A DNA stretch of 35,516 bases from a virus. Shown here in pieces: positions 4,327 through 25,332 of the stretch (position 1 is its first letter; each line of letters opens with the position of its first letter). The DNA lies in the IMG/VR virus record IMGVR_UViG_3300025120_000220, positions 1-35,516 of that record; one strand, 5' to 3'. Position numbers and translations under genes: made by a program. The notes beneath the pieces were generated by a model. The model was not told where the DNA came from and did not search any database. It saw only the letters and a list, made by a program, of their open reading frames with translations.

Positions 4327-5666
4327 TGGCTGTAGACGAAAAAAAAATTATTGTTGAAGACGAGTTTTCTGATGAAAATTTTGTAGGTAACGAAGCTGAA
4401 ACTTTATATCGTCCTGAAGATGAAAAAAATATTTTAGGTGGAGCTTTTGACGTTCTTGAAGGAGATAGTTATACTCAAAAAATGAATAGGAATGAAAGAC
4501 TAGCAGGAGAAACTAATGATCTTAAAAAAGAAAACGAAGCTCTTAAAATTGAATTAGGTAAAGCATTACCCGATCCTGAAAAACAACCAGAAGAAAAAAA
4601 AAGTGCTCTTTCTAAATTTACCTCTGATGTAGGTCAATCATTTATGAATATTGCGTCAGCTATTCCTAATAAAATAGATGAGATTGCTAAAGATCCAAAA
4701 AAGAAAAAGAATTTTATGAGAGGTCTAGAAATCATGGAAGCTTCTTCCGGTATTAAACCCATAGGTCAAGCTAAGTCTCCTTTAGGTATGATATCAAGTG
4801 GATTACTTAAAGCTGAAAAAGGATTCATTGCTACTGATTTAGCAAAAGCTAAAAATAGAGCTGCTATGTTAAAAGCTTCAAAAACAGGAAGAAATGTTTT
4901 AGATCCACAAGAAAAAGCTTTGTTAGATTCATATACTAAATATAGTGACCTTGAAGCCACAAACAAAAAAAACTATGCTGCAACTTTTGATATTTATAAT
5001 CTTTTAAAAAAGGCTGCTGTTGAAAAAAAAGAATTACCAACTGGTGCTCTTAATAAAATTTTCCAAGGAACTGAACAAGTCATATCTGAAATTCCAGGTG
5101 GAGAAGAATTACTAAAAAAATTATATAATAATAAAGGTGATCAAAGCTCCATGGAGCCTGACGAAAGAGTAACTTTTAAAAATATGTTAGGAGCTGCAAC
5201 AAAACAAAAAATTGTAGCTCAAGTAAAAGAACTATATCCGGTGTCTAATAAAGATATAGAAATATTATTACAAACAGTAGGAGATGTTGGAACTAATCCT
5301 GAAGCACTAAGACGTTTAGTTGCAGCACAAATGGCAAGTAGAGAAATAGCATTAAATCAAAGAAAATATGCAACTAAAGCATTTGAAAATAATGATTTAG
5401 ATTTTAAAGAAAATTCTTTTTATGCTTCTGAAAAAGAACTAGCTAAAAGTTTTAGAAAAGGTGTTAAAGAAGAAACTTTAATAGAAATGTTTGGTACAAC
5501 AGAAGATATTACTGATTCGGGAATTATAGCAGCCCATTATTATCAAAGCTTACAACCTCAATTTAAAGATGGTAAAAATCCTTTTGAAATATATACAGAA
5601 AATCAAGCAGCAACTGATGAAGATATTGATAAGATTATTACTGAAAGACAATCAAAAAAAGAATAA
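4326..5666 (+). CDS. Predicted internal virion / ejection protein (coiled-coil)
   Basis: I do not recognise a named family. The 446-residue protein is highly charged and mostly helical. It has an acidic N-terminus, a Lys/Glu-rich coiled-coil-like part at about 50-95 ('NDLKKENEALKIELGKAL') and a repeated helical body without signal peptide or membrane segment. It starts at a TAATG overlap with the S74-ended protein and precedes the 1102-residue protein by 6 bases. In P22-like phages this position holds gp20/gp16-type proteins injected with the DNA, so an internal virion role is the best inference from position, size and helical character. Confidence 0.4.
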   Translation: MAVDEKKIIVEDEFSDENFVGNEAETLYRPEDEKNILGGAFDVLEGDSYTQKMNRNERLAGETNDLKKENEALKIELGKALPDPEKQPEEKKSALSKFTSDVGQSFMNIASAIPNKIDEIAKDPKKKKNFMRGLEIMEASSGIKPIGQAKSPLGMISSGLLKAEKGFIATDLAKAKNRAAMLKASKTGRNVLDPQEKALLDSYTKYSDLEATNKKNYAATFDIYNLLKKAAVEKKELPTGALNKIFQGTEQVISEIPGGEELLKKLYNNKGDQSSMEPDERVTFKNMLGAATKQKIVAQVKELYPVSNKDIEILLQTVGDVGTNPEALRRLVAAQMASREIALNQRKYATKAFENNDLDFKENSFYASEKELAKSFRKGVKEETLIEMFGTTEDITDSGIIAAHYYQSLQPQFKDGKNPFEIYTENQAATDEDIDKIITERQSKKE

Positions 5667-8600: not shown

Positions 8601-8981
8601 GAAGCTTTAGGTGGAAACTATAATGTAATGTTAGATGTTCTTGGATCATCTAATAAACCAATTCATCAAAGCTTATTAAAAAAGTTTTTAAACGCAATAG
8701 GAATTGGAAGTAAAGATTTAAATTATAAAGGAATAAATAAAAAAACTCTTTTAGCAAAAGAATATGTTAAAGATAAAACATATGATGATGATAATGTAGG
8801 AGAACCTGATGTATTCACTGCTGTTGATAATGTTTTGGATCGTTTAGGAAAACAAGCTAAAAAAGATGTAATTGATAAAACTGTTCGTTTATCAAAACAA
8901 TTTGTAAATTATTTAAAAGAAGGTAAAGCTACAAGTGAAAAAGATTATGCGGAAGAAGAATTTAATAAAAAACTAAAATAA
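5673..8981 (+). CDS. Large predicted internal virion / DNA ejection protein
   Basis: This is the longest gene in the window (1102 residues). Most of it is helical, Lys/Asn-rich and soluble. One hydrophobic Ala/Gly-rich stretch at about residues 217-260 ('MSAIAGDIVTVSSAIAAGVGG', then 'VTPVIGTAVASSG') could insert in a membrane, as expected for a protein forming part of an ejection conduit. A second hydrophobic patch lies near 280-310 ('AAIMAGIDLVATPAFLLTGGAI'). The arrangement, one giant protein at the end of the virion operon just before lysis genes, is like gp16 of T7 or gp16 of P22. No transglycosylase motif was recognised. Function is inferred from size, membrane patch and location only. 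Confidence 0.5.
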   Translation: MAELTEYQKESYNIYIGNDIDSETATKLATGELSAADYKKSKISKAPLTEDQVLTNAGYDIELMDTTRAKVKKNKARAASSAAADDYSGESLYLDEYSPSKKDIVNAYGIGTDVKNELPKEVRFALSMGLSNESLQIQDAKKLYINEYLIEDKGYSKEEIDKYSDGIEFKYQDLKDSIVGAGDKKTKIFKYKVPKELGGTGKWNTTNAPTLLPTSGDMSAIAGDIVTVSSAIAAGVGGSFVTPVIGTAVASSGATFTSELTQLMIGRYVYGLGESISEDEFMKTALSEAAIMAGIDLVATPAFLLTGGAIKKAVLTAAKDKISMESIENLIKSGAKLDEGVLKNLDEAKAILKDNGIDDKLADEYLVANIQKVFPESGISISKTASETTQSGEILAKKAIKASDVENKLIKLTSGLDDVNITASQKDDIINRIQSEIKDIRANDIKVAKELVEEAEGKVIKLRPVNTDPTINEIDNMGLTFNEINQNIKPMLSKLERETTNLANKSKVKYNLDLKDTRRILNQTIEKFDIPLYKKMQPPKKGASKEYIAEYKKNQSVLKLAQKFSGDINQTEIVNTMKLLKNGLKNIDDMTYQEAMSWKSIIMAASENEALPAAIRNPLRKVKGDFDKAIIDGLPNDPALLAKHMEYDALLANYRNTFIANLADSFGYGTSKKVTREVGTTGTGRNTFEDFTNGSNKSLIQAEKLSNLLNTKGVFNIAQKNKINNALYDNYFKKVVTGDKKNYLKNHNAFIEKYGKNYELILGKKEYQKFASSQANAIKVMDDAVQKQIEVSNAVSTSLPGMNVAVIDRGSPRAIVEQVLKNFKSNDVSRLVKNLNKTIEGRSVLNDVRKVMVYDFLDQTKINGLHNGKALDNFLNKNGDALEKLFNKEFVQTYRSVAKALNTLQDDTFLGVGAGRKTLTEVANQAGLFIDIFAGPLNHKRLIVNRLSRIFDMFSLGGDNLNLLLDYKLFIEAAKKEALGGNYNVMLDVLGSSNKPIHQSLLKKFLNAIGIGSKDLNYKGINKKTLLAKEYVKDKTYDDDNVGEPDVFTAVDNVLDRLGKQAKKDVIDKTVRLSKQFVNYLKEGKATSEKDYAEEEFNKKLK

Positions 8982-9172
8982 TGGTAAAAAATTTAACAGC
9001 TCATACTAGATTAGATAATCATGAAAAGTTATGTCGTATTATGCAAAAGCAAACTCATGATAAAATTAATTTATTAGCTTTACAAATAAGTAGATTAGAA
9101 AAAATACTAATAGGAGCAGCCGCATTAATAATGAGCGGGTTAGGAGCAGCATTAATACAATTGCTTAAATGA
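8981..9172 (+). CDS. Small membrane protein, possible holin accessory (XhlA-like layout)
   Basis: This is a 63-residue protein with a charged amphipathic helix ('LDNHEKLCRIMQKQTHDKINLLALQISRLEK') followed by one C-terminal transmembrane segment ('ILIGAAALIMSGLGAALIQLL'). This layout is seen in XhlA-type haemolysin/holin accessory proteins. It begins at a TAATG junction with the giant virion protein and ends at an ATGA junction with the nuclease. Its position ahead of amidase and holin supports a lysis role, but a virion membrane protein is also possible. Confidence 0.5.
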   Translation: MVKNLTAHTRLDNHEKLCRIMQKQTHDKINLLALQISRLEKILIGAAALIMSGLGAALIQLLK

Positions 9173-9468
9173 CACTCCAAAAAAATAAAGGTTGTCTTTG
9201 TGAAAATATAGCAATATGTTGGTTACAAGAACAAGGTTATTTTGTGTTTAAAGGTTGTCAAACTCAATCGGCTATTGATCTAATTGCCGTGCATCCAGTT
9301 ACTTTAGAAAATCAATATTTTGATGTTAAAATGAGTGGTAAAAGGAAAGATGGCTCTGAAATTAATAGAGTACCTAGAATTAGAAACAGTAAAATACAAA
9401 TTTTATCTGTAGACTTAAAAACAAAAAAATGTAGAATAGTACCTAGGAGAAAAATATTATGGACCTAA
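9169..9468 (+). CDS. PD-(D/E)XK nuclease-like protein
   Basis: This 99-residue protein has the minimal PD-(D/E)XK fold signature. A helix carries Glu12 ('GCLCENIAICWLQEQGYFVF'), then 'SAIDLIAVHP' with Asp37, then 'QYFDVKMS' with Asp52 and Lys54. Such small single-domain proteins include Holliday-junction-resolvase-like and group-specific nicking enzymes. It overlaps the membrane protein by 4 bases (ATGA) and the amidase by 10. A nuclease in a lysis cassette is unusual; it could assist DNA packaging, junction resolution or host DNA degradation late in infection. The motif residues are clear, but the subfamily is not. Confidence 0.65.
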   Translation: MTLQKNKGCLCENIAICWLQEQGYFVFKGCQTQSAIDLIAVHPVTLENQYFDVKMSGKRKDGSEINRVPRIRNSKIQILSVDLKTKKCRIVPRRKILWT

Positions 9469-9902
9469 GAAGAAAAACAGAAATGATAGTAATTCATTGT
9501 GCTGCAACTAAACCATCTATGGATATAGGTGCGTCTGAAATTAAAAAATGGCATGTAGACGATAACGGTTGGGATGATATAGGTTACCATTACATTATTA
9601 AAAGAGATGGATTAGTAGAAGTAGGAAGACCAGAGGCTTTTCAAGGTGCTCATGCTCCAAGTGTAAATTCTAAAAGTATAGCTATTTGTTTAATAGGCGG
9701 TATGGCAGAAAATGGAGAAGCTGAAAATAATTTTACATTAACTCAATTTCTTTCTTTAAAAGATTTAATTAAAAAATTAATTAAAAGTAATTCTAATATT
9801 AAACAAATATTAGGACATTGCGATGTACAAGACAATAAACCAAATTGTCCTGGATTTCATTTAACACAATGGTTATATAAGGAAGATATTAATGTGGCTT
9901 AA
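9459..9902 (+). CDS. N-acetylmuramoyl-L-alanine amidase (T7 lysozyme-like endolysin)
   Basis: This 147-residue Amidase_2 enzyme cleaves the bond between N-acetylmuramic acid and L-alanine in peptidoglycan. The Zn2+ ligands of T7 lysozyme (His17, His122, Cys130) correspond to His13 ('VIHCAAT'), His120 ('ILGHCDV') and Cys130 ('NCPGF'). The catalytic Tyr46 and Lys128 of T7 correspond to Tyr43 ('IGYHYII') and probably Lys127. Length matches T7 lysozyme (151). No signal peptide is present, so it depends on the holin encoded next for access to the cell wall. T7 lysozyme also inhibits T7 RNA polymerase; no such polymerase is seen here. Confidence 0.92.
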   Translation: MDLRRKTEMIVIHCAATKPSMDIGASEIKKWHVDDNGWDDIGYHYIIKRDGLVEVGRPEAFQGAHAPSVNSKSIAICLIGGMAENGEAENNFTLTQFLSLKDLIKKLIKSNSNIKQILGHCDVQDNKPNCPGFHLTQWLYKEDINVA

Positions 9903-10269
9903 TATTATAAGTGGAGCTTTTAAAGTAGGAGCCCATGTAATGAAAAATCGTCAACAAACTAAAATGTTGATTTCTGATGCTGAAAAAGTTCATGCTCAAA
10001 AAATGGCTAATGGCGAAGTAGAATATCAAAAAGCTGTTATGAATAATAACAATCAAGGATGGAAAGATGAGTTTGTTTTAATTCTTGTGTCAGCCCCTGT
10101 GATGTTATTAATTTGGAGTATCTTTTCAGAAGATCCAGAAATCATGGCAAAGGTAGCTACCTTCTTTGATCATTTTGGTAACATGCCTTTTTGGTATCAA
10201 GCTTTGTTTATTGGTGTAGTTTCAGCCATTTACGGTTTAAAAGGTGCAGACATAATGAAAAAAAAATGA
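9892..10269 (+). CDS. Holin, GTA_holin_3TM-like
   Basis: The 125-residue protein has an N-terminal amphipathic/weakly hydrophobic segment, a charged central helix, then a 'WKDEF' motif leading into a transmembrane segment ('VLILVSAPVMLLIWSIF') and a second one ('WYQALFIGVVSAIYGLKG') before a basic C-terminus. This order and the 'W.DE' and 'YGL' motifs fit the 3TM holin family found in gene transfer agents and alphaproteobacterial phages. It overlaps the amidase by 11 bases, the normal endolysin-holin neighbourhood. It would make the lesions that release the amidase. Confidence 0.8.
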   Translation: MWLNIISGAFKVGAHVMKNRQQTKMLISDAEKVHAQKMANGEVEYQKAVMNNNNQGWKDEFVLILVSAPVMLLIWSIFSEDPEIMAKVATFFDHFGNMPFWYQALFIGVVSAIYGLKGADIMKKK

Positions 10270-10382
10270 TAAATAAAATTGCATATAAATTTTTTAGTAT
10301 AATGGATGATATCTGTGAATGGATCGCAACTAAATTCTCTGGCAAAAGATGTCAGTGTGGTAAAAAAGGAAATAAAAAATGA
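10266..10382 (+). CDS. Small cysteine-containing protein downstream of holin
   Basis: This is a 38-residue ORF starting with ATG at an ATGA overlap with the holin stop. A longer in-frame start at 10191 would lie deep inside the holin gene and is not needed. The peptide has an amphipathic N-terminal half ('IAYKFFSIMDDICEWIATKF') and a basic C-terminus with a 'CQCGKKG' cluster. No family recognised. The continuous stop-start overlaps on both sides argue it is translated. Confidence 0.5.
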   Translation: MINKIAYKFFSIMDDICEWIATKFSGKRCQCGKKGNKK

Positions 10383-10495
10383 TTAAATATTTTTTAGAAA
10401 AAATATATCATTGCTCTGGCTATTTAAATTCGTGGTCTTGGCAAAAATTATATAGTAATAGAGAAAAAGGTTACGGATATACTAAAGTTAAATAA
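10379..10495 (+). CDS. Small aromatic-rich ORF (38 aa)
   Basis: ATG at 10379 overlaps the preceding stop (ATGA) and the frame runs to TAA 10493-10495. The peptide is aromatic and basic ('SGYLNSWSWQKLYSNREKGYG'). It converges with and overlaps the end of the minus-strand helicase gene by 8 bases. Not recognised; supported mainly by the ATGA coupling and lack of free space. Confidence 0.4.
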   Translation: MIKYFLEKIYHCSGYLNSWSWQKLYSNREKGYGYTKVK

Positions 10496-11963
10496 ATAAC
10501 TCTTTCCAATCATCACCTGTAATTTGATCAGCTAGTTTCTTCTTAGTACTTAAAGCTTGTAATATCTTTTCATCAATAGTATTAGGACATACAAAATCTA
10601 TATAAGTTACTTTATCAGTTTGACCAATACGGTGGGCTCTATCTTCTGATTGAAGTCTTACTTCCATATCGTAAGTATTATTAAAATAGATAACTGTTTT
10701 AGCAGCAGTTAAAGTTAAGCCATAACCTCCAGTTCTAGGTTGACCTATAAAATATTTTATTTCTCCTGATTGAAATCTTTCAACAATACCTTGTCTTTCT
10801 TCTGATGGAGTATCTCCAAAAAAGGCTGCTACTTTACTAGCTCCATATTTTTTAGCTAAAGTATCACGGATCAATTTAATTGAATTACGATAGGTTGCCC
10901 ATATAATTACACCGCCTTGTGTTTCATCTAACACATTTAAAAGTTCTTGTAATCTAGAATTAGGTCCTTTTATAACTTCTTCAGTTCCATCGTCATATTT
11001 AATAAAGCCACATAGGATCTGTTGTAATCTTAATATTCGTGTGATTACGAGAGGTGCCGTCACCAATTTAGACTGTTCTAGTTCTAGTATAGCTCTTTTT
11101 CTTAATGTGTGATACATGACCTTCTGTTCACGAGAAAGCTCTATTTCTCTTTTTAATCTTATTTTTGGAGGTAAATCTAAACATTCATCTTTAGTTACTC
11201 TGAAACTATGTTCTTCTAATATTTTTTGAAGTTCATCTAGTCTTTGATACTCGACTATCTCATCAAAGCTATGAGTAGATGTTCTTCTTCTGCGAATTAC
11301 ACAAAAAGTATTTCTATAAGCATAAAAACTAGATTGAAGTATAAACTCATCTAGGAAATGCATTTGAGCCCATAAGTCTAAAGGACCTTGGGTCACTGGA
11401 GTTCCTGTTAATATTCTTCTATACTTAGCAAACTTACTTAATTTTAAACAAGCTTTAGTTCTTCTAGCAGTTCTATTTTTAATATTACTACTTTCATCTA
11501 TAGTCCATAAACAATTAGTAATATTTAATAATCTATTTAAATAATTTTTTCCTTTGTCAGTTGATAGAGCCTCTATATTAATTATAAAAAATTTTAATTT
11601 ATGAGAAGGATTTAAAAAATTAGTTAAATTTTCTACATTAGATTTAGTTTCAATAGGATTCCAAATACATACATCTGTAAAACTTTTTACATCATCAGGC
11701 ATATGAGTATTAAATTCAGAAGCAACCCAATTTCGATAGACACCTTTAGGAGCTGTAATAACAGCACAGTTAATTTTGCCTTGTCTATATAGATAAGCTA
11801 TATTATCTATAATAACTTTAGACTTACCAGTTCCTTGTTCCATAAACAAAGCATAAGCTTCTTTGTCTTTAGACTTTAAAAAAACATCATATTGATGTTT
11901 ATAAGGTTTTGTTTTAAATTTATACTTAACGAAGTTTTCTTCGTTAACAAATTCTACCTGCAT
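10488..11963 (-). CDS. SNF2-type DEAD/DEAH-box helicase
   Basis: This 491-residue superfamily 2 helicase has SNF2 features: a Q-like 'YKHQYDVF' start, Walker A 'EQGTGKS' (42-48), motif Ia 'ITAPKGVYRNWV', Walker B 'TIDESS' (Asp156-Glu157, DESS in place of DEAH), motif III 'LTGTPV' (185-190) and motif VI 'QSEDRAHRIGQ' (438-448), with 'GGYGLTLTAA' as motif V. It uses ATP to translocate on duplex DNA. Phage versions are thought to act in replication, recombination or displacement of bound proteins. It is the only gene on the minus strand, so it is transcribed apart from both the lysis and the replication blocks. Its start has an AGAAAG ribosome binding site on the minus strand. Confidence 0.9.
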   Translation of the reverse strand: MQVEFVNEENFVKYKFKTKPYKHQYDVFLKSKDKEAYALFMEQGTGKSKVIIDNIAYLYRQGKINCAVITAPKGVYRNWVASEFNTHMPDDVKSFTDVCIWNPIETKSNVENLTNFLNPSHKLKFFIINIEALSTDKGKNYLNRLLNITNCLWTIDESSNIKNRTARRTKACLKLSKFAKYRRILTGTPVTQGPLDLWAQMHFLDEFILQSSFYAYRNTFCVIRRRRTSTHSFDEIVEYQRLDELQKILEEHSFRVTKDECLDLPPKIRLKREIELSREQKVMYHTLRKRAILELEQSKLVTAPLVITRILRLQQILCGFIKYDDGTEEVIKGPNSRLQELLNVLDETQGGVIIWATYRNSIKLIRDTLAKKYGASKVAAFFGDTPSEERQGIVERFQSGEIKYFIGQPRTGGYGLTLTAAKTVIYFNNTYDMEVRLQSEDRAHRIGQTDKVTYIDFVCPNTIDEKILQALSTKKKLADQITGDDWKELFI

Positions 11964-11990
11964 AAAAACTTTCTGTATTACTAATTTTAA

Positions 11991-12024
11991 ATTTACTTTA
12001 TAGCTAAATTAATTTAAAGTAAAT
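11991..12024. promoter_or_regulatory. Inverted repeat in divergent promoter region (candidate operator)
   Basis: ATTTACTTTA (11991-12000) and TAAAGTAAAT (12015-12024) are perfect 10-bp inverted arms separated by 14 bp. It sits in the 83-bp gap between the divergent helicase and replication operon starts, giving both directions the same TAAAGTAAAT sequence ahead of their start. It could be an operator or paired promoter elements. The same 10-mer also occurs at 27510-27519 and 31474-31483 before genes, and once inside a gene near 59. Confidence 0.45.
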
Positions 12025-12046
12025 AAAAAAAGAAAGGAGAAAAAAT

Positions 12047-16263: not shown

Positions 16264-17755
16264 AATATTTGGTAGCCCAGGTACAGGTAAAACAACTACT
16301 CTTTTAAAATTATTAGAAGAAAAAATTGCAGAAGGTCATCGACCTGATAAGATAGGATTTTTTTCTTTTACACGTAGAGCAATTAAAGAAGCAAGAAGTA
16401 GAGTAATTAAAAAATTTAATCTAACAGAAGATGATTTAGAATATTTTAGAACTATTCACAGTATGTGTTATAGAACTTTAAATATTAATAGTGGTCAAGT
16501 CTTTAAAGGAGAACGTGTAAGAGAGTTTAGTGAAATAGCTAGAGTAGAGATGACAGGAGTATCAGAAGAAGATACTTCAGGTTTATCTATAGGAAATAAG
16601 AAAGGAGATTTATTATTATTTTGTGATGAAGTATCACGTTCTAGTGAAAGAGATTTAAAATCAGTATGGAAAGAACTAGAGTGTGAACATACTTGGGAAG
16701 AACAAGAATATTTTTCTACGGCTTTAAGAAATTTTAAAAAGTCTAAAAATCTTTTAGATTTTACAGATATGTTAGATGTTTTTAATAAAGAAACTGTTAT
16801 ACCTCAATTAGATATAATGTTTGTAGATGAAGCACAAGATTTAACTACTAAACAATGGAAAGTAATAGATAAGTTAACAACTAATTGTAAATACAGGTAT
16901 ATAGCTGGTGATGATGATCAAGCTATTTATAGATGGGCTGGTGCTGATGTTAAAAAATTTTTAGATATACCTGGTAGTATCGAAGTACTTCCTATTAGCT
17001 ATAGGCTTCCTAAAACTATTCATAAACTTGCGTGTGATATATCTCATAAAATATCTTTAAGGCAAGCAAAAAGTTGGACTTCAAGAGAGGATCAAGGATC
17101 AGTAACTGATATTACTACTATTGAAGAACTAGATATGTCAAATGGAGAATGGTTAATTTTAGCTAGATCAGGATATCAATTATTTAAATCTGAAGCCTAT
17201 TGTAAAAGAATGGGTTGGTTTTATGAAAAAGGATATCATGAATTTAAAACAAATAAATTTGTAATTGCAATTAGATCGTGGATTAAATTAAATAGAGGTG
17301 ATACTATTTCTTTCGATGAACTTAAAAAATTATATCAATGTATTAAAGGAAGAACTGGTATAACTAGAGGATTTAAAAAATTAGAAGGTATAGATCAAAA
17401 TATGGAATTTTCTTTAAAATATTTAAAAGATAATGTAGGTTTATTAGCTTCTGGTAAATGGCAAGAAATAATTACAGGTTTAGATCCTGAAGACATAATA
17501 TTATTTGAATCATTAATTAAATCAGGAGATATATTTAAAAATAAAGCTAGAATTAGGTTATCAACAATACATGGAATTAAAGGTGGTGAAAGTGATAATG
17601 TAGTAGTTATTTCCGATATATCATATAGAACTTGGCGTAAATTTAATCTTGAACCAGATGATGAACATAGAGTATTTTATGTAGCGGTAACTAGAGCTAA
17701 AAAAAATTTGTTCTTGTTGCAGCCTGAAACGAAGTATAATTACGAATTAAAATGA
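16247..17755 (+). CDS. UvrD/Rep-like superfamily 1 DNA helicase
   Basis: This 502-residue SF1A helicase moves 3'-5' in known homologues. Motifs are Walker A 'GSPGTGKTT' (9-17), Ia 'FFSFTRRAIKEA', II 'FVDEAQD' (192-198), III 'IAGDDDQAIYRWAGAD', IV 'LPISYRLP', V 'LSTIHGIKGGESDNVVV' and VI 'VFYVAVTRAKKNLFLL'. It is shorter than cellular UvrD (about 720), with reduced 1B/2B subdomains, similar to T4 Dda in size. It overlaps the exonuclease by 17 bases and the methyltransferase by 4. It is the best candidate for the replicative or accessory fork helicase in this window. Confidence 0.9.
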   Translation: MTKTIKIFGSPGTGKTTTLLKLLEEKIAEGHRPDKIGFFSFTRRAIKEARSRVIKKFNLTEDDLEYFRTIHSMCYRTLNINSGQVFKGERVREFSEIARVEMTGVSEEDTSGLSIGNKKGDLLLFCDEVSRSSERDLKSVWKELECEHTWEEQEYFSTALRNFKKSKNLLDFTDMLDVFNKETVIPQLDIMFVDEAQDLTTKQWKVIDKLTTNCKYRYIAGDDDQAIYRWAGADVKKFLDIPGSIEVLPISYRLPKTIHKLACDISHKISLRQAKSWTSREDQGSVTDITTIEELDMSNGEWLILARSGYQLFKSEAYCKRMGWFYEKGYHEFKTNKFVIAIRSWIKLNRGDTISFDELKKLYQCIKGRTGITRGFKKLEGIDQNMEFSLKYLKDNVGLLASGKWQEIITGLDPEDIILFESLIKSGDIFKNKARIRLSTIHGIKGGESDNVVVISDISYRTWRKFNLEPDDEHRVFYVAVTRAKKNLFLLQPETKYNYELK

Positions 17756-18810
17756 AAGCATTGGGAACTTATATATTTGCAGGTGGATTTACTTTAGGAG
17801 TAAAAAAACATTTTGATGTTGAAGCACATTTTGAAATGAAACCAGGTTTATATAAAAAAACCGCTAAAGCTAATTTTCCTGATTTACCAATTTATGAAGG
17901 CGAAGACGAATGGCCTAGAGAAAAATACAAAAATAAAATTGATTTTGTATATTGTAATCCGCCTTGTGCACCTTGGTCAAATTTAGGTACAACACAAAAA
18001 GGTGGAATGGCATGGAAAGATGATCCTAGAATTGCGTGTTGGAGAAATAGTTTTAATTTATTAAAACAATTAAGACCTTCAGCAATAGCTATTGAATCCG
18101 TTCCTAGAGTTTATTCTAAAAATGGCGGATATGAAATGATTATGGAACTTACACGAGAAGCTCATAAATTAGGATATCAAACTACTCATTTATTAATAGA
18201 TGGTCAATTTACTGGTCTTAATCATAGTCGTAAAAGATTTTTTTTTATAGCAACTAAATATAATTTAAATACTAATAGATTAAATTTTTCACCTTCTCCT
18301 ACTACTGGAGAAGTTTTAAAATCATTTAAAGAAGAACACGGAGATGATATTGGTCATATATTTAAAATGACACCAACTGAAATTCCATACTTAAAAGATT
18401 GTAAACAAGGTGAAAGTTTAAGAACAACTTGGGAAAGATTCAATCCACCAGAAACTTGGGTCAGAGGAGGAATGCGTGGAGGAGTTAAAGGTAGACCTCA
18501 ATTTATGAAATGGAGATTATCAACTGCTAAAATTTGTCCAGTTATAGCAGGAGGATTTTATATTCACCCTACAGAAGATAGATTATTTGGTCATAAAGAA
18601 TTAGCTTATCTTGCAGGATTTCCTCATGATTTTAAATTTGAAGGTCCTGCTGGATCTATTGGATCACAAATCGCAAGAGGAGTAATGCCACCTGTAGCTG
18701 AATATGTAGCAAGAATAGTAAAAGAGAGTATAACTAATAAAGAAAAACAAGTAGAGCAACATGTGACTGTAGATTATAGAAAACAACCAGAACAAGAAAG
18801 ATTAATTTGA
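17752..18810 (+). CDS. DNA cytosine-5 methyltransferase (Dcm-like)
   Basis: The 352-residue protein has the C5-MTase order of motifs: I 'GTYIFAGGFTLGV' (5-17, SAM binding), IV 'YCNPPCAPWSNLG' with nucleophile Cys72, VI 'AIESVPRVYS' (Glu115; ESV in place of ENV), VIII 'NHSRKRFFFIAT' (Arg160-Arg162), and a distal 'RLFGHKELAYLAGFPHDFKFEG' plus 'IGSQIARGVMPPVAEYVARIV', matching motifs IX-X. The target-recognition region would lie about 200-300; the sequence cut is unknown. No partner restriction endonuclease is next to it. It leads directly into the MazG-like gene (TTGA overlap) and so heads a nucleotide-modification cluster. Small N-terminal trimming of motif I is odd but intact in the key Gly residues. 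Confidence 0.85.
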   Translation: MKALGTYIFAGGFTLGVKKHFDVEAHFEMKPGLYKKTAKANFPDLPIYEGEDEWPREKYKNKIDFVYCNPPCAPWSNLGTTQKGGMAWKDDPRIACWRNSFNLLKQLRPSAIAIESVPRVYSKNGGYEMIMELTREAHKLGYQTTHLLIDGQFTGLNHSRKRFFFIATKYNLNTNRLNFSPSPTTGEVLKSFKEEHGDDIGHIFKMTPTEIPYLKDCKQGESLRTTWERFNPPETWVRGGMRGGVKGRPQFMKWRLSTAKICPVIAGGFYIHPTEDRLFGHKELAYLAGFPHDFKFEGPAGSIGSQIARGVMPPVAEYVARIVKESITNKEKQVEQHVTVDYRKQPEQERLI

Positions 18811-19253
18811 GTAACTTAAAAAAATTAGATTCATTAACTGATTTATTAGGAGATATAAATAGATTTCATAATAAATTTAATTTTGAAAAAAATAAAAAAG
18901 TAGGAATACCAGATGATCCTGAATTAGTTAATTTTAGAACTTCTTTTTTAATGGAAGAATTAGCAGAATATACTCAAGCTATAACTAAAAAAGATGATGC
19001 TGCTGCTTTAGATGCTCTTATTGATATTGTTTATATAGCTTTAGGTACAGCTTGGTTATTTAATTTACCTTTTGAAAAAGGTTGGAACGAAGTACAAAAA
19101 GCTAATATGAGTAAGTTAAGATCAAAAATTAAATCATTAAAACGTGGAACTACTTATGATGTTATAAAACCTAAAGATTGGATAGCTCCTAATATAGAAA
19201 AAATTGTAGAGGAAGAGAAAGAGATAAATGAAGATATTAGTAACTGGATTTAA
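18807..19253 (+). CDS. MazG-like / PRA-PH-fold NTP pyrophosphohydrolase
   Basis: The start codon is TTG at a TTGA overlap with the methyltransferase. The 148-residue all-alpha protein has the EExxE motif (Glu50, Glu51, Glu54 in 'FLMEELAEY'), the second metal site 'LDALIDIVYIALGTA' (Asp69/Asp73) and 'NEVQKANMSKL', typical of phage phosphoribosyl-ATP pyrophosphohydrolase-like enzymes. The end 'KPKDWIAPNI' fits the family's terminal 'GPNYxPPDI' motif. These enzymes hydrolyse (d)NTPs to (d)NMP and pyrophosphate. T4 gp56 (dCTPase) has the same fold, which matters because the following genes look like a dCMP modification route. Substrate preference cannot be read from sequence. Confidence 0.8.
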   Translation: MSNLKKLDSLTDLLGDINRFHNKFNFEKNKKVGIPDDPELVNFRTSFLMEELAEYTQAITKKDDAAALDALIDIVYIALGTAWLFNLPFEKGWNEVQKANMSKLRSKIKSLKRGTTYDVIKPKDWIAPNIEKIVEEEKEINEDISNWI

Positions 19254-20262
19254 TGCTCTTACAATAGGAACAGCAAAAAGTCCTTTAAATATTGCAACAT
19301 CAGCTAGAATATTACCAGGTGTATTAAGAGATCAAGGCCACGAAGTAACTCAAAAAGCTATTACGCCAGGAGAAGATGTATCTCAGTATGATAAAGTAAT
19401 AGTTTATGTATTTGGACCTAATAGCTTATCAGCTCGTTATTGGTATGGTGCTGCTTATACTATTATTAAAAGACCTGATGCCATCATATCAATAGACGAT
19501 CATCAAACTAAAGAAACTAAATCAGGCTTTGGAACTTTTAGTAGAGGTCATTGGAGAATATGGAAGAAATTTTCTCAAGCAGGTAATCCAGTTGGTAAAA
19601 TGTATTGGGAAGAAGCCCAACCTTATAAAAAAGAAATAGAAGATTTGGTAGATACTTTTGCTTTTGAAGAATGGCCACATAAATTATTAATTCCAGCTTA
19701 TGATGGAGGTAATTATGAAGCTTTAGGAATAAAAGCTAAAGAAATTATTAATTGGGATCCTTCTCCTTACACAAATTCTTATTTAAACGATCCTAAAGGT
19801 GTTGATTTATTTAGTCAAGAAGAAGTTGTTGAAAAAGAAAAAGCTTGGATAATGGCTAGTCTTTTAAATAAAATGAATTGGTTAAAAAAACAAACTTTTA
19901 CTTGGCCAATTAAAACTTTTGGAAACATTAAAGAAGGTCAAGTAAGATTAAAAGAACATGAATTATATCAAGAGTATAGAAAACATTGGGGTATATTAAG
20001 TCCTCCTCACTCTCATACTTTAAATGGAAGTGGTTGGTGGAGAGTTAGATATAATATGGCTTTTTCTGCTGGATCTTTATTATTAGGTCATCTTTCTGAA
20101 ACTAAAGTATTAGGAGAAGGTTACAATATTGAAGTAGATAACATAGAAAAGAAAACTGACCAAGAATTAAAAGAAATGGTATCTTACCAGAAAGAAAGTT
20201 TTATAAAGAATACTTGGAATAAAGAAAGAACGAAAGAATTTTTTAAATGTCTATTGGGATAA
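19228..20262 (+). CDS. GT-B-type glycosyltransferase-like protein, candidate DNA (hydroxymethylcytosine) glycosyltransferase
   Basis: The 344-residue protein begins like a Rossmann domain ('MKILVTGFNALTIG', then 'ARILPGVLRDQGHEV') with 'VSQYDKVIVYVFG' as the next strand. This matches the layout of the T4 beta-glucosyltransferase N-domain (MKIAIINMG..., ...DYDRLIVVN). The C-terminal part 'WWRVRYNMAFSAGSLLLGHL' followed by a long helix ('DQELKEMVSYQKESFIKNTWNKERTKEFFKCLL') parallels the BGT nucleotide-sugar-binding half and its final helix. Length also agrees (T4 BGT 351). It lies between the MazG-like and kinase genes and overlaps both. I judge glycosyltransferase likely and DNA target plausible from context; no alignment was run, and lipopolysaccharide transfer remains possible. 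Confidence 0.5.
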   Translation: MKILVTGFNALTIGTAKSPLNIATSARILPGVLRDQGHEVTQKAITPGEDVSQYDKVIVYVFGPNSLSARYWYGAAYTIIKRPDAIISIDDHQTKETKSGFGTFSRGHWRIWKKFSQAGNPVGKMYWEEAQPYKKEIEDLVDTFAFEEWPHKLLIPAYDGGNYEALGIKAKEIINWDPSPYTNSYLNDPKGVDLFSQEEVVEKEKAWIMASLLNKMNWLKKQTFTWPIKTFGNIKEGQVRLKEHELYQEYRKHWGILSPPHSHTLNGSGWWRVRYNMAFSAGSLLLGHLSETKVLGEGYNIEVDNIEKKTDQELKEMVSYQKESFIKNTWNKERTKEFFKCLLG

Positions 20263-20819
20263 TAATATTTGACGGACCAGATGGAGTAGGTAAAACTACT
20301 TTAATTAATCATATTAAAAAAAATAATTCTAATTCTTATTATATGCATTTAAGAGTTCATAAAGATATGGAATTATGGCATACAGCTACGGCAAGATTAG
20401 CAGGTAAAAAAAGATTAGAAGGTAAATTAGTTTTATTAGATAGACATTGGCCAAGTGAACAATGTTATTCTTATATTTATAGATCAGGTCCTTCTTATAA
20501 TCCTAAAAAAATATATCAAACTTTAAATAACCAAGGAGCTTTATATGTATGGTGTATACCAGAAGATACTCAAAGAGTTAAAGAAAATCATAGAAGTAAT
20601 AGAGAAAAACGACATGAAGAATATTATGATATTGATAATGTTGTTGATTATTATTATCAGCATTGGTTTAGTAAACCTAAACGGTCTAATTTTTTAAGTG
20701 AGTTATCTCCATTAAAAGAAAGAAAAAATTTTATAAGATATGATATGTTTAAAGATGGTTATAAGTTAGATGAATTTTCAGATAAAATAACAGAAAGGTC
20801 AATGGTACTACAATTATGA
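20247..20819 (+). CDS. Deoxynucleoside monophosphate kinase (thymidylate kinase-like)
   Basis: This 190-residue P-loop kinase has 'FDGPDGVGKTT' (Walker A, residues 8-18) and 'LVLLDRHWPSEQCY' with Asp65-Arg66 (the DRx motif of thymidylate kinases). The 'EENHRSNREKRHEEYYD' region supplies the Arg-rich lid. It would phosphorylate a dNMP to dNDP. Placed beside a dCMP-type TS-fold enzyme, it could be the analogue of T4 gp1, which phosphorylates hydroxymethyl-dCMP. It overlaps the previous gene by 16 bases and the next by 4. Confidence 0.82.
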   Translation: MSIGIIIFDGPDGVGKTTLINHIKKNNSNSYYMHLRVHKDMELWHTATARLAGKKRLEGKLVLLDRHWPSEQCYSYIYRSGPSYNPKKIYQTLNNQGALYVWCIPEDTQRVKENHRSNREKRHEEYYDIDNVVDYYYQHWFSKPKRSNFLSELSPLKERKNFIRYDMFKDGYKLDEFSDKITERSMVLQL

Positions 20820-21655
20820 AAGATATAAATGCAAAATATAGAAAAAAACTATGGGAAATACATTCTACTCCTGAATTTGTAACTCAACCTAGAAATTTAA
20901 AAATAGCTGAAGTTTTAAATGATAGTTGGACTATTGATATGGATGATCCTATTATTACTCTTGCAGATAGAAAATTAAGTTATGATTTTATGTTTGGAGA
21001 AGCAGTATGGATGCTTCAAGGACGTAACGATGTAGCAGGAGTTTATAAATATGCTAACGGTATAAAAAGATTTAGTGATAATGGTATTACTTTTTTTGGA
21101 GCATACGGTCCTAAAATCATTGATCAATTACCTTACGTTTTAGATATTTTAGAAAAAGATCAAGATACAAGACAAGGAGTATTAAATATATGGAGAGAGA
21201 ATCCTAGATCAAGTAAAGATATTCCTTGTACATTATCTTTGCAATTTTTTCTAAGAAAAACAAGTAATGACTTATGGTTACATACTATTGCTACAATGAG
21301 AAGTAACGATATATGGTTAGGTACTCCTTACGATAGTTTTAATTTTAGTGCAATATCTTTTTATTTAGTTTTATTATTAAATAGTAGAGGAATCAAATGT
21401 AAATTAGGTAAATTAAATATTCAAGCTGGTAGTAGACATTTATACGAAAGTGATTTTAAAAAAGTTGATAGAGTATTGTTAAGTGAAGAAATAGAAGATT
21501 TTCCAGAGTTTTCATTTAATAATCTTATTGATATTTATAAAGATGAACCTGAACAATTTATTCCTACTTTAGAACGTGCAGCTAATAGCGGTTATAAAGT
21601 TAAATATGGAGTATTACAAAAACCTTCTAAAAATCATAAGCCAGGTATTATGTAA
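20816..21655 (+). CDS. Thymidylate-synthase-fold enzyme with dCMP-type active site (candidate dCMP hydroxymethylase)
   Basis: This 279-residue thymidylate synthase homologue carries the nucleophile Cys138 ('DIPCTLSLQF'), Glu62 ('EAVWMLQG'), Arg119 ('DTRQGVLNIW'), Arg162/Asp165 ('MRSNDIWLG') and His208/Tyr210 ('SRHLYESD'). The residue that selects dUMP in thymidylate synthases (Asn177 in E. coli, in LPFNIA) is here Asp173, in 'GTPYDSF'. The same Asn-to-Asp change distinguishes T4 dCMP hydroxymethylase and is known to switch TS to dCMP. PCT replaces the usual PCH after the nucleophile. The likely product is 5-hydroxymethyl-dCMP, with 5-methyl-dCMP as the alternative. It overlaps the kinase by ATGA and joins the deaminase by TAATG. 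Confidence 0.78.
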   Translation: MKDINAKYRKKLWEIHSTPEFVTQPRNLKIAEVLNDSWTIDMDDPIITLADRKLSYDFMFGEAVWMLQGRNDVAGVYKYANGIKRFSDNGITFFGAYGPKIIDQLPYVLDILEKDQDTRQGVLNIWRENPRSSKDIPCTLSLQFFLRKTSNDLWLHTIATMRSNDIWLGTPYDSFNFSAISFYLVLLLNSRGIKCKLGKLNIQAGSRHLYESDFKKVDRVLLSEEIEDFPEFSFNNLIDIYKDEPEQFIPTLERAANSGYKVKYGVLQKPSKNHKPGIM

Positions 21656-22113
21656 TGGTTAGAGAACCTTCTGACTTTTATTTTTTAAGAATGGCTATGT
21701 TAGTATCTGAACGTGGTACTTGTGCACGTAGACAAGTAGGAAGTATTTTTATTAATAAAAAAAATCATATAATAGCTACAGGTTATAATGGAAATCCAAG
21801 TGGCTTTCAGCATTGTATAAGTAAACCTTGTCCAGGGGCAAAATCAAAAACAGGTACTGATTTAGATAAATGTGAAGCAATACACGCAGAACAGAATGCT
21901 TTACTTCAATGTAAAGATGTTTATGAAATAGATAGAGTATATTGTACTTTATCTCCATGTATTCATTGTGTTAAATTATTACTTAATACTTCAGCTAGAC
22001 ATATTTTATTTTGTGAACAGTACATTCACCAAGATGCTAAAAGATTGTGGAAAGATAGTAACAGAGAATGGTCTTATATTAATAAAAATATTATTTTAGG
22101 TAAACTAAATTAA
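21655..22113 (+). CDS. Deoxycytidylate (dCMP) deaminase
   Basis: The 152-residue protein has the zinc-binding cytidine-deaminase motifs: 'CEAIHAEQNALL' (His77, catalytic Glu79) and 'CTLSPCIHCVKLLL' (Cys102, Cys105). The N-terminal 'GTCARRQVGSIFINKKNHIIATGYNGNPSG' is the usual dCMP deaminase start. It converts dCMP to dUMP for dTTP synthesis. Here it competes with the TS-fold enzyme for dCMP, as in T4, where both are present. It joins both neighbours by TAATG, so co-translation is likely. Confidence 0.9.
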   Translation: MVREPSDFYFLRMAMLVSERGTCARRQVGSIFINKKNHIIATGYNGNPSGFQHCISKPCPGAKSKTGTDLDKCEAIHAEQNALLQCKDVYEIDRVYCTLSPCIHCVKLLLNTSARHILFCEQYIHQDAKRLWKDSNREWSYINKNIILGKLN

Positions 22114-23954
22114 TGTTTAATGTAAATAAAATAGATGAAGCTACATTAATTGCAATAGATACAGAAACTTGCGATCCTCATTTAAAAACAATGGGACCAG
22201 GTGGTTTTAGAAAAGACGGTCATATAGCTGGAATTTCTGTTTCAACTGATAGCGGTTATACTGAATATTTTCCTATAGGTCATGAAGGTGGTGGTAACTT
22301 AAATAAAACTAAAGTAATTGAATTTATAGATTATATTTATAAATCTAATAAAAAACTTATATTTGCTAATGCTATGTATGACTTAGAGTGGCTTTATTCA
22401 CTCGATAATAGACTTACCCTTACTCGACATCATAAAATAAGAGATGTTCAAACTATAGAACATCTAATAGATGAAAACAAGTTAAAGTATTCGTTAGATA
22501 GTCTTGCTAAATATTATTTAAGAAAATCTAAGTATGAAGTTGAACTTGCTCAAGCTGTACTATTTAAGTTTGGTAAACGAGCAAAAGTAAAAGAAAATTT
22601 ATGGAGACTTCATGCTAATGAAGTAAGTGAATATGCAAAAGAAGATGCTTTACTGACTTTAAATATATATCAAAAACAACAAGAAAGAATTAAAAGAGAA
22701 GAAATAGAAAGTATTGTTGACTTTGAATCTAGACTTATTCCTGTATTATTTCATATGAGAAGAAAAGGAGTAAGAGTAGATGTTAATAAAGCACATAAAC
22801 TTTATGATGAATTAGAAAAAAAACAAGTAGAAGTTCAATCAATACTAAATAAATTAGGAAGTACTGAAGTTAATGTATGGGCTAATGCTTCTTTAAAAGA
22901 AGCTTATGATAAAAATAATATTGGATATGGTTATACGGCAAAAGGCACTCCTTCCTTTACAGCCAGTTGGTTAGAAACTCAAAAAGACGAAGTAAGTCAA
23001 AGTATTTTAAAAGTAAGAAAATTAGATAAGATTAGAAATACATTTGTAAAAAATATGATTATTGATAAAGCTTCTAACGGAAGAATATATTGTGGCTTTA
23101 ATCCAATGGGTACTGTTACAGGTAGATTTAGTTCTCAATATCCTAATCTTCAACAAGTACCAGCTAGAGACCCGGAACTTGGACCTTTGATCAGGAGTTT
23201 ATTTATACCTGAAGAAGAATCAGATTGGGTTTGTGCTGATTATTCTCAACAAGAACCTAGAGTATTAGTTCATTATGCCAGTCTTAAAGGTATGGACACA
23301 GCTATAAAAGTTAAAGATGAATTTAATAAAAATGATAAAACAGACTTTCATCAAATGGTAGCTACTATGGCAAGTATACCTAGAAAACAAGCTAAGACTA
23401 TTAATTTAGGATTATTTTATGGAATGGGAAATAAAAAATTAGCTTCAGAATTAGGATTAGATAAAGATCAAGCTTCTGAATTGTTTAATAGATATCATGA
23501 TAAAGTTCCTTTTGTAAAAGAACTATCAAGACAAGTATCAAATGTAGCCAGTTCAAGAGGTTATATTAAAACTTTATTAGGTAGAAAAAGAAGATTTGAC
23601 ATGTGGGAACCTAGAGATAGTTGGGGTGAACGAGCTTATTCTTTATCAGAAGCACATGCTCAATATCCTAAACAAGAACTTAAAAGAGCTTATACTCATA
23701 CTGCTATGAATGCTTTAATTCAAGGTTCTTCTGCTGATATTACTAAATCAGCTATGATTAAAATATATGAAGCTGGTTTATTAGATGAAATTGATTTAAA
23801 ACTCACGGTGCATGATGAATTAGATTTTTCAGTAAATAAAGATAAACAAAAATGTTTTGAAGAAAGTTTACATATCATGAAAAACTGTGTAGATTTAAAA
23901 GTGCCACTTAAAGTTGATGTTGAAAAAGGAAAAAATTGGGGAACTATAAAATAA
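22113..23954 (+). CDS. DNA polymerase I (family A) with 3'-5' exonuclease
   Basis: The 613-residue replicative polymerase has a proofreading domain with Asp16/Glu18 ('IAIDTETCD'), Asp90 ('ANAMYDLEWL') and Asp178 ('YAKEDALLTL'). Polymerase motif A is 'CADYSQQEPRVLVHYA' (Asp376), where the common IELR is QEPR. Motif B is 'RKQAKTINLGLFYG' (Arg424, Lys428, Tyr436) and motif C 'LTVHDELDF' (His567-Asp568-Glu569). The position equivalent to E. coli Phe762 is Leu432. It has no 5'-nuclease domain and is shorter than T7 gp5 (704). It follows the deaminase by TAATG and would copy DNA with whatever modified dCTP the upstream genes make. Confidence 0.95.
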   Translation: MFNVNKIDEATLIAIDTETCDPHLKTMGPGGFRKDGHIAGISVSTDSGYTEYFPIGHEGGGNLNKTKVIEFIDYIYKSNKKLIFANAMYDLEWLYSLDNRLTLTRHHKIRDVQTIEHLIDENKLKYSLDSLAKYYLRKSKYEVELAQAVLFKFGKRAKVKENLWRLHANEVSEYAKEDALLTLNIYQKQQERIKREEIESIVDFESRLIPVLFHMRRKGVRVDVNKAHKLYDELEKKQVEVQSILNKLGSTEVNVWANASLKEAYDKNNIGYGYTAKGTPSFTASWLETQKDEVSQSILKVRKLDKIRNTFVKNMIIDKASNGRIYCGFNPMGTVTGRFSSQYPNLQQVPARDPELGPLIRSLFIPEEESDWVCADYSQQEPRVLVHYASLKGMDTAIKVKDEFNKNDKTDFHQMVATMASIPRKQAKTINLGLFYGMGNKKLASELGLDKDQASELFNRYHDKVPFVKELSRQVSNVASSRGYIKTLLGRKRRFDMWEPRDSWGERAYSLSEAHAQYPKQELKRAYTHTAMNALIQGSSADITKSAMIKIYEAGLLDEIDLKLTVHDELDFSVNKDKQKCFEESLHIMKNCVDLKVPLKVDVEKGKNWGTIK

Positions 23955-24098
23955 ATGGAAATAGGAAAAAATTGGCATTTAAAATTAAGGTTAAAAATTG
24001 AACAATTACAAAAAGAACTAGACTTAAAAACAATAAGATTAAGAATAGCTGAAAAAAAATTAATAAAATATGAAAATAGGATTTCTAGGACTGGGTAA
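23955..24098 (+). CDS. Small coiled-coil protein (47 aa)
   Basis: ATG follows the polymerase stop directly (TAAATG) and the frame runs 47 codons. The peptide is a single charged amphipathic helix ('LKIEQLQKELDLKTIRLRIAEKKL'). It overlaps the start of the dehydrogenase gene by 29 bases. Unknown function; small basic helical proteins in this position may bind the polymerase or DNA, but nothing shows that. Confidence 0.45.
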   Translation: MEIGKNWHLKLRLKIEQLQKELDLKTIRLRIAEKKLIKYENRISRTG

Positions 24099-25332
24099 AT
24101 TAGGTTTACCAGTAGCTTTAGCTGTTGAAAGTAAAGGTCATCAAGTTATGGGAACTGACATTGATGATTCAATTTTAAGAAATATTAGATTTAAAACATT
24201 AAATTATAGAGAAGAAGGTGCTGAAGAGCTACTAAAAAAATCTAAAATTCAATTAAAAAGTATAGATAAAATTGTTGAAGAATGTGATATAATATTTGTT
24301 CCTATTCAAACTCCTCACGATAAAAAATATGAAGGTATTACTCGAATACCAAAAGAACGTGCTGATTTTAATTATGACTATTTAGTTAATGGAATAAAAG
24401 AAATTAACGAAGAAATTGAAAAACAAGGGAAAGATAAAACAGTTATTATTATTTCTACTGTCCTTCCAGGTACTATTACTAAACTTATTAAACCTATAAT
24501 TGGTAATCATTTAAAACTTTGTTATAATCCATTTTTTATAGCAATGGGAACTACTATTAATGATTTTTTAAATAGTGAAATTATTTTATTTGGAGTAACT
24601 GACGAAAGTGCTGCAAAACAAGCTGAAGAATTTTATAAAACAATTAATAAAACACGTTTTTATAAAACAACTTTAGAGAATGCTGAACTAATTAAAGTAG
24701 TTTATAACACTTTTATTTCAACTAAGATTGCAATGATGAATACAGTTATGGAAACTTGCCATCATTTACCTAATACTGATGTAGATGTGGTAACTGAAGC
24801 TTTAGCTTTATGTACGGATAGAATTATAAGTAAAAAATATCTATATGGAGGTATGGGAGACGGAGGAGGTTGTCACCCACGAGATAATATAGCTCTCAGT
24901 TACTTAGCTCAAAAATTAAATTTATCATATAACTGGTACGATAATATAATGAAGCAAAGAGAAAATCAAACGGAATGGTTAGCTGATTTAATTATTAAAC
25001 ATAAAGGTGATAGGGAAATAAATATTTTAGGTAAATGTTTTAAACCTGAAACTAATATCACAACAGGAAGTCCGGCTATATTGTTAAAAAATATTTTAGA
25101 AGAAAAAGGAGAAACTGTAAGAATGTGGGATCCCTGGGTTGATGATTCAGATATTATGAAAGTAAAAGATGAATACAAATGGGATACTGTACCTCAATTA
25201 TTTTTTATTGGTTGTAAACATGAAGCATTTGAAATATTTTATTTTATGCCTGATTCTGTAGTCATTGATCCATTTAGATATTTAGAAGTAAATGACGATG
25301 TTAAATATATACCTATAGGAAAAAATGTATGA
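24070..25332 (+). CDS. UDP-glucose 6-dehydrogenase family protein
   Basis: This 420-residue enzyme is of the UDP-glucose/GDP-mannose dehydrogenase family. The N-terminus has the Rossmann NAD motif 'GLGKLGLPVA' (7-16) and 'MGTDIDDSIL' ending the second strand with acidic residues. The middle has 'ISTVLPGTITK', 'YNPFFIAMG' and 'LENAELIKVVYNTFISTKIAMMNTV' (active-site Lys219). The catalytic Cys268 is in 'GDGGGCHPRDNIALSYLA', compared with GFGGSCFPKD in typical Ugd. The C-terminal domain includes 'ILGKCFKPETNITTGSPAI'. It oxidises UDP-glucose twice to UDP-glucuronate. Specificity for another UDP or GDP sugar cannot be excluded. A sugar-nucleotide enzyme beside the polymerase suggests DNA or capsule sugar modification. 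Confidence 0.8.
   Translation: MKIGFLGLGKLGLPVALAVESKGHQVMGTDIDDSILRNIRFKTLNYREEGAEELLKKSKIQLKSIDKIVEECDIIFVPIQTPHDKKYEGITRIPKERADFNYDYLVNGIKEINEEIEKQGKDKTVIIISTVLPGTITKLIKPIIGNHLKLCYNPFFIAMGTTINDFLNSEIILFGVTDESAAKQAEEFYKTINKTRFYKTTLENAELIKVVYNTFISTKIAMMNTVMETCHHLPNTDVDVVTEALALCTDRIISKKYLYGGMGDGGGCHPRDNIALSYLAQKLNLSYNWYDNIMKQRENQTEWLADLIIKHKGDREINILGKCFKPETNITTGSPAILLKNILEEKGETVRMWDPWVDDSDIMKVKDEYKWDTVPQLFFIGCKHEAFEIFYFMPDSVVIDPFRYLEVNDDVKYIPIGKNV

Follow-up and report, generated by a model that had tools for sequence, protein, structure and literature searches.

Glycosylation of 5-hydroxymethylcytosine (hmC) in DNA is known in its T4-type form, and other sugars on cytosine are known from phage Thanatos and from Mosigvirus (PMC12838424, PMC13390438). 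In Bacillus phage SP-15, which encodes a UDP-glucose dehydrogenase, both glucuronate and glucose are found on the DNA (PMC5977210). Among marine phages, HTVC023P-type pelagiphage clades have thymidine hypermodification genes, in which a thymidylate synthase (TS) is paired with an aG/PT-PPlase, and one putative hmC glucosyltransferase has been reported, in clades other than these (PMC9599517). In the open-licence literature we found no paper on the family phrog_14998, on UDP-glucose dehydrogenase (UGD) or UDP-glucuronate decarboxylase (UXS) together with hmC, or on glucuronyl-hmC, and, SP-15 aside, nothing relevant on phage hmC that carries galactofuranose or glucuronate. Here we analyze a gene cassette in the IMG/VR virus record IMGVR_UViG_3300025120_000220, taken whole (35,516 bases, G+C content about 29%; hereafter the window). 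We lean towards the view that this operon makes glycosylated hmC DNA by the logic of T4 with a different sugar supply, the donor depending on a UGD-like enzyme. That a T4-type pathway for cytosine glycosylation is present at all we hold with considerable confidence; whether the sugar is one other than glucose seems to us evenly balanced.

A run of genes on the + strand, in which neighbors overlap by 1-26 bases, codes in order for a C5-cytosine DNA methyltransferase-like protein, a MazG-like protein, a candidate glycosyltransferase (GT), a nucleotide kinase, a TS-fold enzyme, a dCMP deaminase and a family A DNA polymerase (PolA), and is followed by the gene for the UGD-like enzyme. The genes named in the original prediction were all found where it had placed them, with this strand and these overlaps; its operon lacked the methyltransferase at the head, which shares 4 bases with the MazG gene and which we add here. 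An identical gene order was found in 33 IMG/VR contigs, with GT identities of 66-94%, and the operon is thus not a chance arrangement. At the near-DNA level, the window had no match among public phage records. The 14 kb contig IMGVR_UViG_3300025168_001637 (L087 and L202) carries part of the TS-fold gene and a UGD gene that are 100% identical to those of the window, and evidently comes from this phage or one very close to it.

The TS-fold enzyme (20816-21655; PF00303, E 2e-17) has as its best PDB match the CMP 5-hydroxymethylase MilA (E 8e-19), the best thymidylate synthase reaching only 2e-9. The position that sets base specificity is Asp in cytosine enzymes and Asn in uracil enzymes (PMC5175136), and in T4 it is Asp179, which selects dCMP over dUMP (PMC6400193). 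The window enzyme has D173 in this place, which is also that of MilA Asp186, at the same spacing from the MRSND motif as in T4 gp42, and Asp was found there in 139/139 homologues with the motif. Moreover, C138, E62 and D135 align with T4 Cys148, Glu60 and Asp145, the last of which is the proposed activator of the hydroxylating water (PMC6400193). In MilA the preference for CMP depends on Lys133 and Ala176, which are Arg and Ser in T4 and TS (PMC5175136); as read from alignments, R119 and S163 put the window enzyme in the deoxy-preferring state of this switch, and dCMP is therefore its expected substrate. We predict that the enzyme hydroxymethylates dCMP to give 5-hydroxymethyl-dCMP (hmdCMP), and an hmC-type base in this phage appears highly probable. 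D173 and the CMP 5-hydroxymethylase as best solved relative both bear out the earlier proposal of a TS fold with a dCMP-type Asp that makes hmC at the nucleotide level. Because of D173, thymidine hypermodification was rejected.

The candidate GT (19228-20262, 344 aa) belongs to phrog_14998 (E 9e-26), which is annotated as 'unknown function'. No Pfam or NCBIfam family scored above its cut-off, and a PDB sequence search could not place the protein. An AlphaFold model made from 37 sequences (pLDDT 90, pTM 0.88) showed a GT-B fold nearest to that of T4 BGT. When the model was compared with the PDB using Foldseek, the top three hits were T4 BGT entries (E ~1e-6, TM 0.53-0.59), and T4 AGT came below them, among other GT-B proteins. 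With VIA-align, four T4 BGT entries took ranks 1-4 (best Z 18.1, root-mean-square deviation 4.0 Å over 294 residues), followed by SenB (Z 16.0), glycogen synthases and T4 AGT (Z 15.3). The model thus supports the earlier assignment of the GT-B-like protein as a DNA glycosyltransferase, and the best matches were not the lipopolysaccharide (LPS) transferases that had been named as an outcome refuting the prediction, as T4 BGT outranked every other GT-B protein. PF09198, the Pfam BGT family, matched T4 itself but neither the window GT nor anything in the records of 17 relatives; the protein is therefore better described as working like BGT than classified as BGT. By eye, D90-D91 may correspond to BGT Asp100 and R272 to Arg269, a tentative equivalence. 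The GT and T4 BGT could not be aligned globally by profile, and a local alignment was reliable only over GT residues 28-70.

The genes that accompany the GT in other phages point in the same direction. All named GT-bearing phages checked, except C48C1, carry a TS homologue with Asp. In searches of whole records, the cytosine-type residue was found in Aeromonas phage 25, Erwinia FBB1, Morganella Rgz1, DSL-LC01, MW202657, Gordonia BlueNGold and several IMG/VR records; nothing can be concluded from two short GT-bearing fragments, of 14 and 22 kb, in which TS was absent. The complete record of C48C1 (L036, OQ984149.1) has no TS homologue and no PF00145 methyltransferase. At 8586-12033 of this record, a Tet_JBP oxygenase (PF12851, E 3e-17) is encoded directly upstream of the GT, and a UDP-galactopyranose mutase (UGM) downstream. 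The GT is thus linked with two routes that lead to hmC. Relatives of the GT at 26-32% identity adjoin a kinase and TS (L051, L077, L078, L080, L081, L083, L086), and others, at 26-36%, adjoin UGM (L054, L055, L059-L062, L064, L079, L084, L085). Because a BGT-like modeled fold is combined with this association with a cytosine-type TS or a TET/JBP oxygenase, hmC in DNA is very likely the acceptor that the GT glycosylates, and we would be surprised if this enzyme acted on anything other than DNA cytosine. A 2-oxoglutarate oxygenase of the window itself (260-880) was considered as a TET enzyme and set aside, as it matches PF13759 and not Tet_JBP (part of the window reading frames was scanned).

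The UGD-like protein (24070-25332; phrog_9148, E 6e-85; TIGR03026, E 6e-63) is a nucleotide-sugar 6-dehydrogenase of a GGGCHPRD subfamily, with the domains PF03721 (E 7.5e-28) and PF00984, and with PF03720 slightly below cut-off. The catalytic Cys268 and Lys209 are invariant in 12 relatives. Its best PDB relative is GDP-mannose dehydrogenase, followed by UGDH. The nearest cellular kin are Pelagibacteraceae, with about 55-64% identity to proteins of SAR11 genomes, and the gene probably came from a glycan pathway. Since the window record yielded no protein of the Pfam GT1 or GT2 families, the BGT-like protein is the obvious consumer of the UGD product; a consumer could also lie outside the GT1/GT2 families, or in the host.

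In a PolA tree, the phages with a GT-bearing cassette formed one clade (39 rows, support 100/100). Within it, 26 rows, the window included, make up a UGD clade (100/100), and the other 13 a sister clade (99/98). UGD was present in 24/24 close relatives whose contigs reach its place, and UGD, UXS or UGM was present in 35/46 GT-bearing cassette loci vs 0/47 GT-less ones. In the sister clade (GT identity 45-54%), PF03721 was absent from whole contigs of up to 64 kb, and the operon has instead UXS, between exonuclease and UvrD genes (human UXS1 match, E 7.5e-90; next family, 3.5e-33). Most members also have a Methyltransf_23 protein; in L047 the UXS (4469-5419) and the Methyltransf_23 protein (6908-7576) stand in place of UGD. 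In the distant L072, UGD and UXS lie back to back, and next to the GT of Rgz1 are an arabinose-5-phosphate isomerase and an NTP-transferase. As the GT occurs in the sister clade without UGD, the near-perfect synteny of UGD in the 33 closest loci was rejected as decisive proof of a sugar link. The restriction of UGD to the lineage with the GT fits the earlier proposal of UGD as the sugar supply, which is weakened by the UXS found with the same GT in the sister clade. Together, the distribution suggests one hmC-GT core with an exchangeable sugar supply.

Most members of the UGD clade have a NadE-like gene (NAD synthase family) directly after UGD, as in L012 (8636-9406) and many relatives, and none was found there in the window, L027 and L003. 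A NadE-like gene also lies near this UGD subfamily in L243, L249, L252, L254-L258, L261, L262, L271, L272, L276-L278 and L281. The encoded protein might amidate the uronate or supply NAD; a model made from relatives was poor (pLDDT 47) and was not used. An extra short-chain dehydrogenase/reductase (SDR) epimerase was found in L001, L026 and L027.

In the pathway that we propose, MazG would convert dCTP to dCMP, the TS-fold enzyme would convert dCMP to hmdCMP, and the kinase, with host enzymes, would raise hmdCMP to hmdCTP, which PolA would incorporate into DNA, while the dCMP deaminase would feed dTTP for an AT-rich genome. The BGT-fold GT would then place a sugar on the hydroxymethyl group in DNA, and the UGD-like enzyme most likely oxidizes a sugar nucleotide, in the simplest case UDP-glucose, to a uronic acid donor, or its precursor, for the GT. 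Families, residues, fold, synteny and co-occurrence were observed; the substrates, the order of the steps and the DNA modification itself we infer. There is about an even chance that the sugar on DNA comes from UGD, as its product or a derivative of it. Glucuronate or a close uronate as that sugar is possible but not to be counted upon, and plain glucose is likewise doubtful. We regard as tentative the fuller proposal in which a uronic acid on hmC (glucuronyl-hmC or a derivative) is set by a new BGT-fold family whose donor is swapped between lineages through UGD, UXS and UGM, and in which the uronate is amidated in relatives retaining the NadE-like gene. Of the original notion of T4 logic with a different sugar, hmC synthesis and a DNA GT are supported, and the glucuronyl sugar stays a possibility, given UXS in the sister clade and UGD in glycan clusters without the cassette.

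The methyltransferase at the head of the cassette (17752-18810, 352 aa; PF00145, E 7.6e-28) has PPC at residue 70 and IESV at 114 instead of the usual ENV (motif VI reads ESV). It was found in 43/46 GT-bearing cassette loci vs 2/47 GT-less loci, occupying the same place in L001-L033 and L043-L050, and PF00145 was detected in 11/16 GT-bearing records searched. The MazG-like NTP pyrophosphohydrolase (18807-19253, TTG start; PF01503, E 1.7e-12; phrog_671, E 4e-27) is a candidate dCTPase. The P-loop kinase (20247-20819) is a candidate hmdCMP kinase; it is thymidylate kinase-like, and its assignment as the dNMP kinase proposed before remains weak (phrog_761, thymidylate kinase, E 3e-11; PF02223, E 1.6e-4). 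The dCMP deaminase (21655-22113; PF00383, E 8e-19; phrog_174, E 2e-35) precedes PolA (22113-23954; PF00476, E 5e-75), which has a 3'-5' exonuclease domain and whose nearest annotated relatives are HTVC023P-type pelagiphages (41-45%). The 115-base interval between PolA and UGD is occupied, as read by eye from the sequence, by a small reading frame of 47 codons (23955-24098). The host of this marine virus is probably SAR11, judging from the kin of PolA and of UGD and from a similar G+C content. The only long minus-strand gene of the window (10488-11963) codes for an SNF2-type helicase that resembles the helicase parts of ZorD and DpdE (PADLOC models).

Cassettes without the GT have other proteins at its place. 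In L136 this is a carbamoyltransferase (6240-7937; Carbam_trans) near a cytosine-type TS, which matches the known pairing of 5hmC carbamoyltransferases; enzymes of this class have been shown to modify hmC (PMC8670742). A Methyltransf_23 protein is encoded upstream of MazG or the kinase in the GT-less L116 (6674-7561), L132 (6357-7196), L145 (7075-7887) and L131 (1910-2809), and is possibly a different hmC tailoring step. Also, a second GT-like protein, about 20% identical to the GT, adjoins it in many actinophage-like loci, among them L037 (10148-11137) and L072 (10032-11054), and perhaps adds a second sugar.

Several observations weigh against the pathway as drawn. BGT Glu22 and Glu272 have no clear counterpart, by eye, in the GT sequence. 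The UGD reads GGGCHPRD where the canonical motif, found in the form of L072, is GGSCFPKD, and its C-terminal FKPxTDDxR region reads FKPETNITTG; because of these divergent motifs, UDP-glucose is only presumed to be its substrate. In SAR11, UGD of the GGGCHPRD type sits in surface-glycan clusters among Glycos_transf_1 proteins, and in large marine phages the same subfamily, often with a NadE-like neighbor, is found where the DNA cassette is absent. The link between UGD and the GT is thus inferred, as the subfamily is common to the glycan clusters of SAR11 and phages. Also, the GT-bearing and the UGD-bearing phages each form a single clade on the PolA tree. Since these genes, and likewise UXS, each mark one clade, their co-occurrence in the cassette does not amount to many independent events; only a few associations with sugar genes are independent, namely those of the UGD and UXS clades, of L072, of two or more UGM lineages and of the neighbors in Rgz1. 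Finally, the pathway does not account for a C5-methyltransferase in a predicted hmC phage.

These points bear first on the possibility that hmC and the GT are correctly assigned and that the GT draws on host UDP-glucose or another host sugar, UGD being an unrelated surface-glycan gene that landed beside PolA. Three points favor this possibility: T4 BGT itself takes UDP-glucose, the sister clade retains the GT without UGD, and the UGD subfamily is common in glycan clusters of SAR11 and marine phages, often with a NadE-like neighbor and with neither TS nor GT. We nevertheless rate it as rather improbable, because a search of the window record gave no Pfam GT1 or GT2 protein, no relative whose contig extends far enough has lost UGD while the NadE-like neighbor was lost in three phages, the window among them, and none of the 47 GT-less cassettes has UGD. 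A host decarboxylase could also turn the UDP-glucuronate made by UGD into UDP-xylose, so that the final sugar would be a pentose such as xylose. The UXS in the operon of the sister clade and the adjacent UGD and UXS of L072 favor this idea, as does the (deoxy)pentose on cytosine in Shewanella phage Thanatos, whose TH1_063 is a UDP-xylose pyrophosphorylase (PMC12838424); searches of the window record and of nine UGD-clade records, however, gave no UXS, only two distant SDRs (27-29% identity), and we think a pentose unlikely.

It is quite improbable that the TS-fold enzyme makes the 5-hydroxy-dCMP of Mosigvirus or the 5-methyl-dCMP of Xp12, with the sugar on another group or no sugar at all. The residue of the Asp179 type marks the use of cytosine and says nothing of the group added, and the 5-hydroxy-dCMP synthase of Mosigvirus, where arabinose is linked directly to C5, is homologous to hmdCMP synthase (PMC13390438). 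Yet the closest solved relative of the TS-fold enzyme is a hydroxymethylase, D135 aligns with the proposed water activator of T4 (PMC6400193), and the pairing of the GT with a TET/JBP oxygenase in C48C1 fits a hydroxymethyl acceptor. A GT directed at LPS or at a virion protein, in an operon that merely remodels nucleotide pools, would be more surprising still. GT-B folds are alike, many LPS-type transferases scored at Z 13-15 and a gene neighborhood is no proof, but T4 BGT entries hold the four highest ranks and the GT accompanies hmC-making enzymes across unrelated phage groups.

Glycosylation of hmC by the GT, which we continue to favor, would give a likely function to the previously unannotated phrog_14998, whose members occur in T4-like, actinobacterial and marine phages. 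It would also suggest a modular rule, in which a core that makes and glycosylates hmC is combined with interchangeable genes for sugar supply. If this is true, phage DNA would carry a much wider range of sugars than glucose and arabinose, and neighboring genes could serve to predict which one. DNA sugars determine which restriction, Type IV and CRISPR defenses fail, and SAR11 hosts rank with the most abundant cells of the ocean.

The window encodes together hmC synthesis, dCTP removal, a kinase and a GT, the dCTPase and kinase substrates being presumed. It thereby resembles T4 (gp56, gp42, gp1 and Agt/Bgt), sharing a TS fold of the dCMP hydroxymethylase type, a pyrophosphatase, a kinase, a dCMP deaminase and a BGT-like GT-B protein. 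Unlike T4, it has a GT outside the Pfam BGT family, a MazG-type protein instead of an identified gp56 and PolA instead of PolB, and it adds a C5-methyltransferase and UGD in a compact operon. UGD is shared with SP-15, the precedent for a phage-supplied uronate on DNA, in which the base is dihydroxypentyluracil and glucuronate is attached via phosphate, whereas the base in the window is predicted to be cytosine. With Thanatos and Mosigvirus (RB69, NP) the window has in common a TS-superfamily enzyme and a cytosine with a phage-supplied non-glucose sugar, proposed here; their pentose pathways use other genes, and in Mosigvirus arabinose sits straight on C5 (PMC12838424, PMC13390438). No RB69 protein was among the GT relatives found. 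The phages with 5hmC carbamoyltransferases (PMC8670742) also combine a TS-type hydroxymethylase with a tailoring enzyme, a role that in the window would fall to the GT, and HTVC023P-type pelagiphages are, as this phage probably is, SAR11 podoviruses with TS next to PolA.

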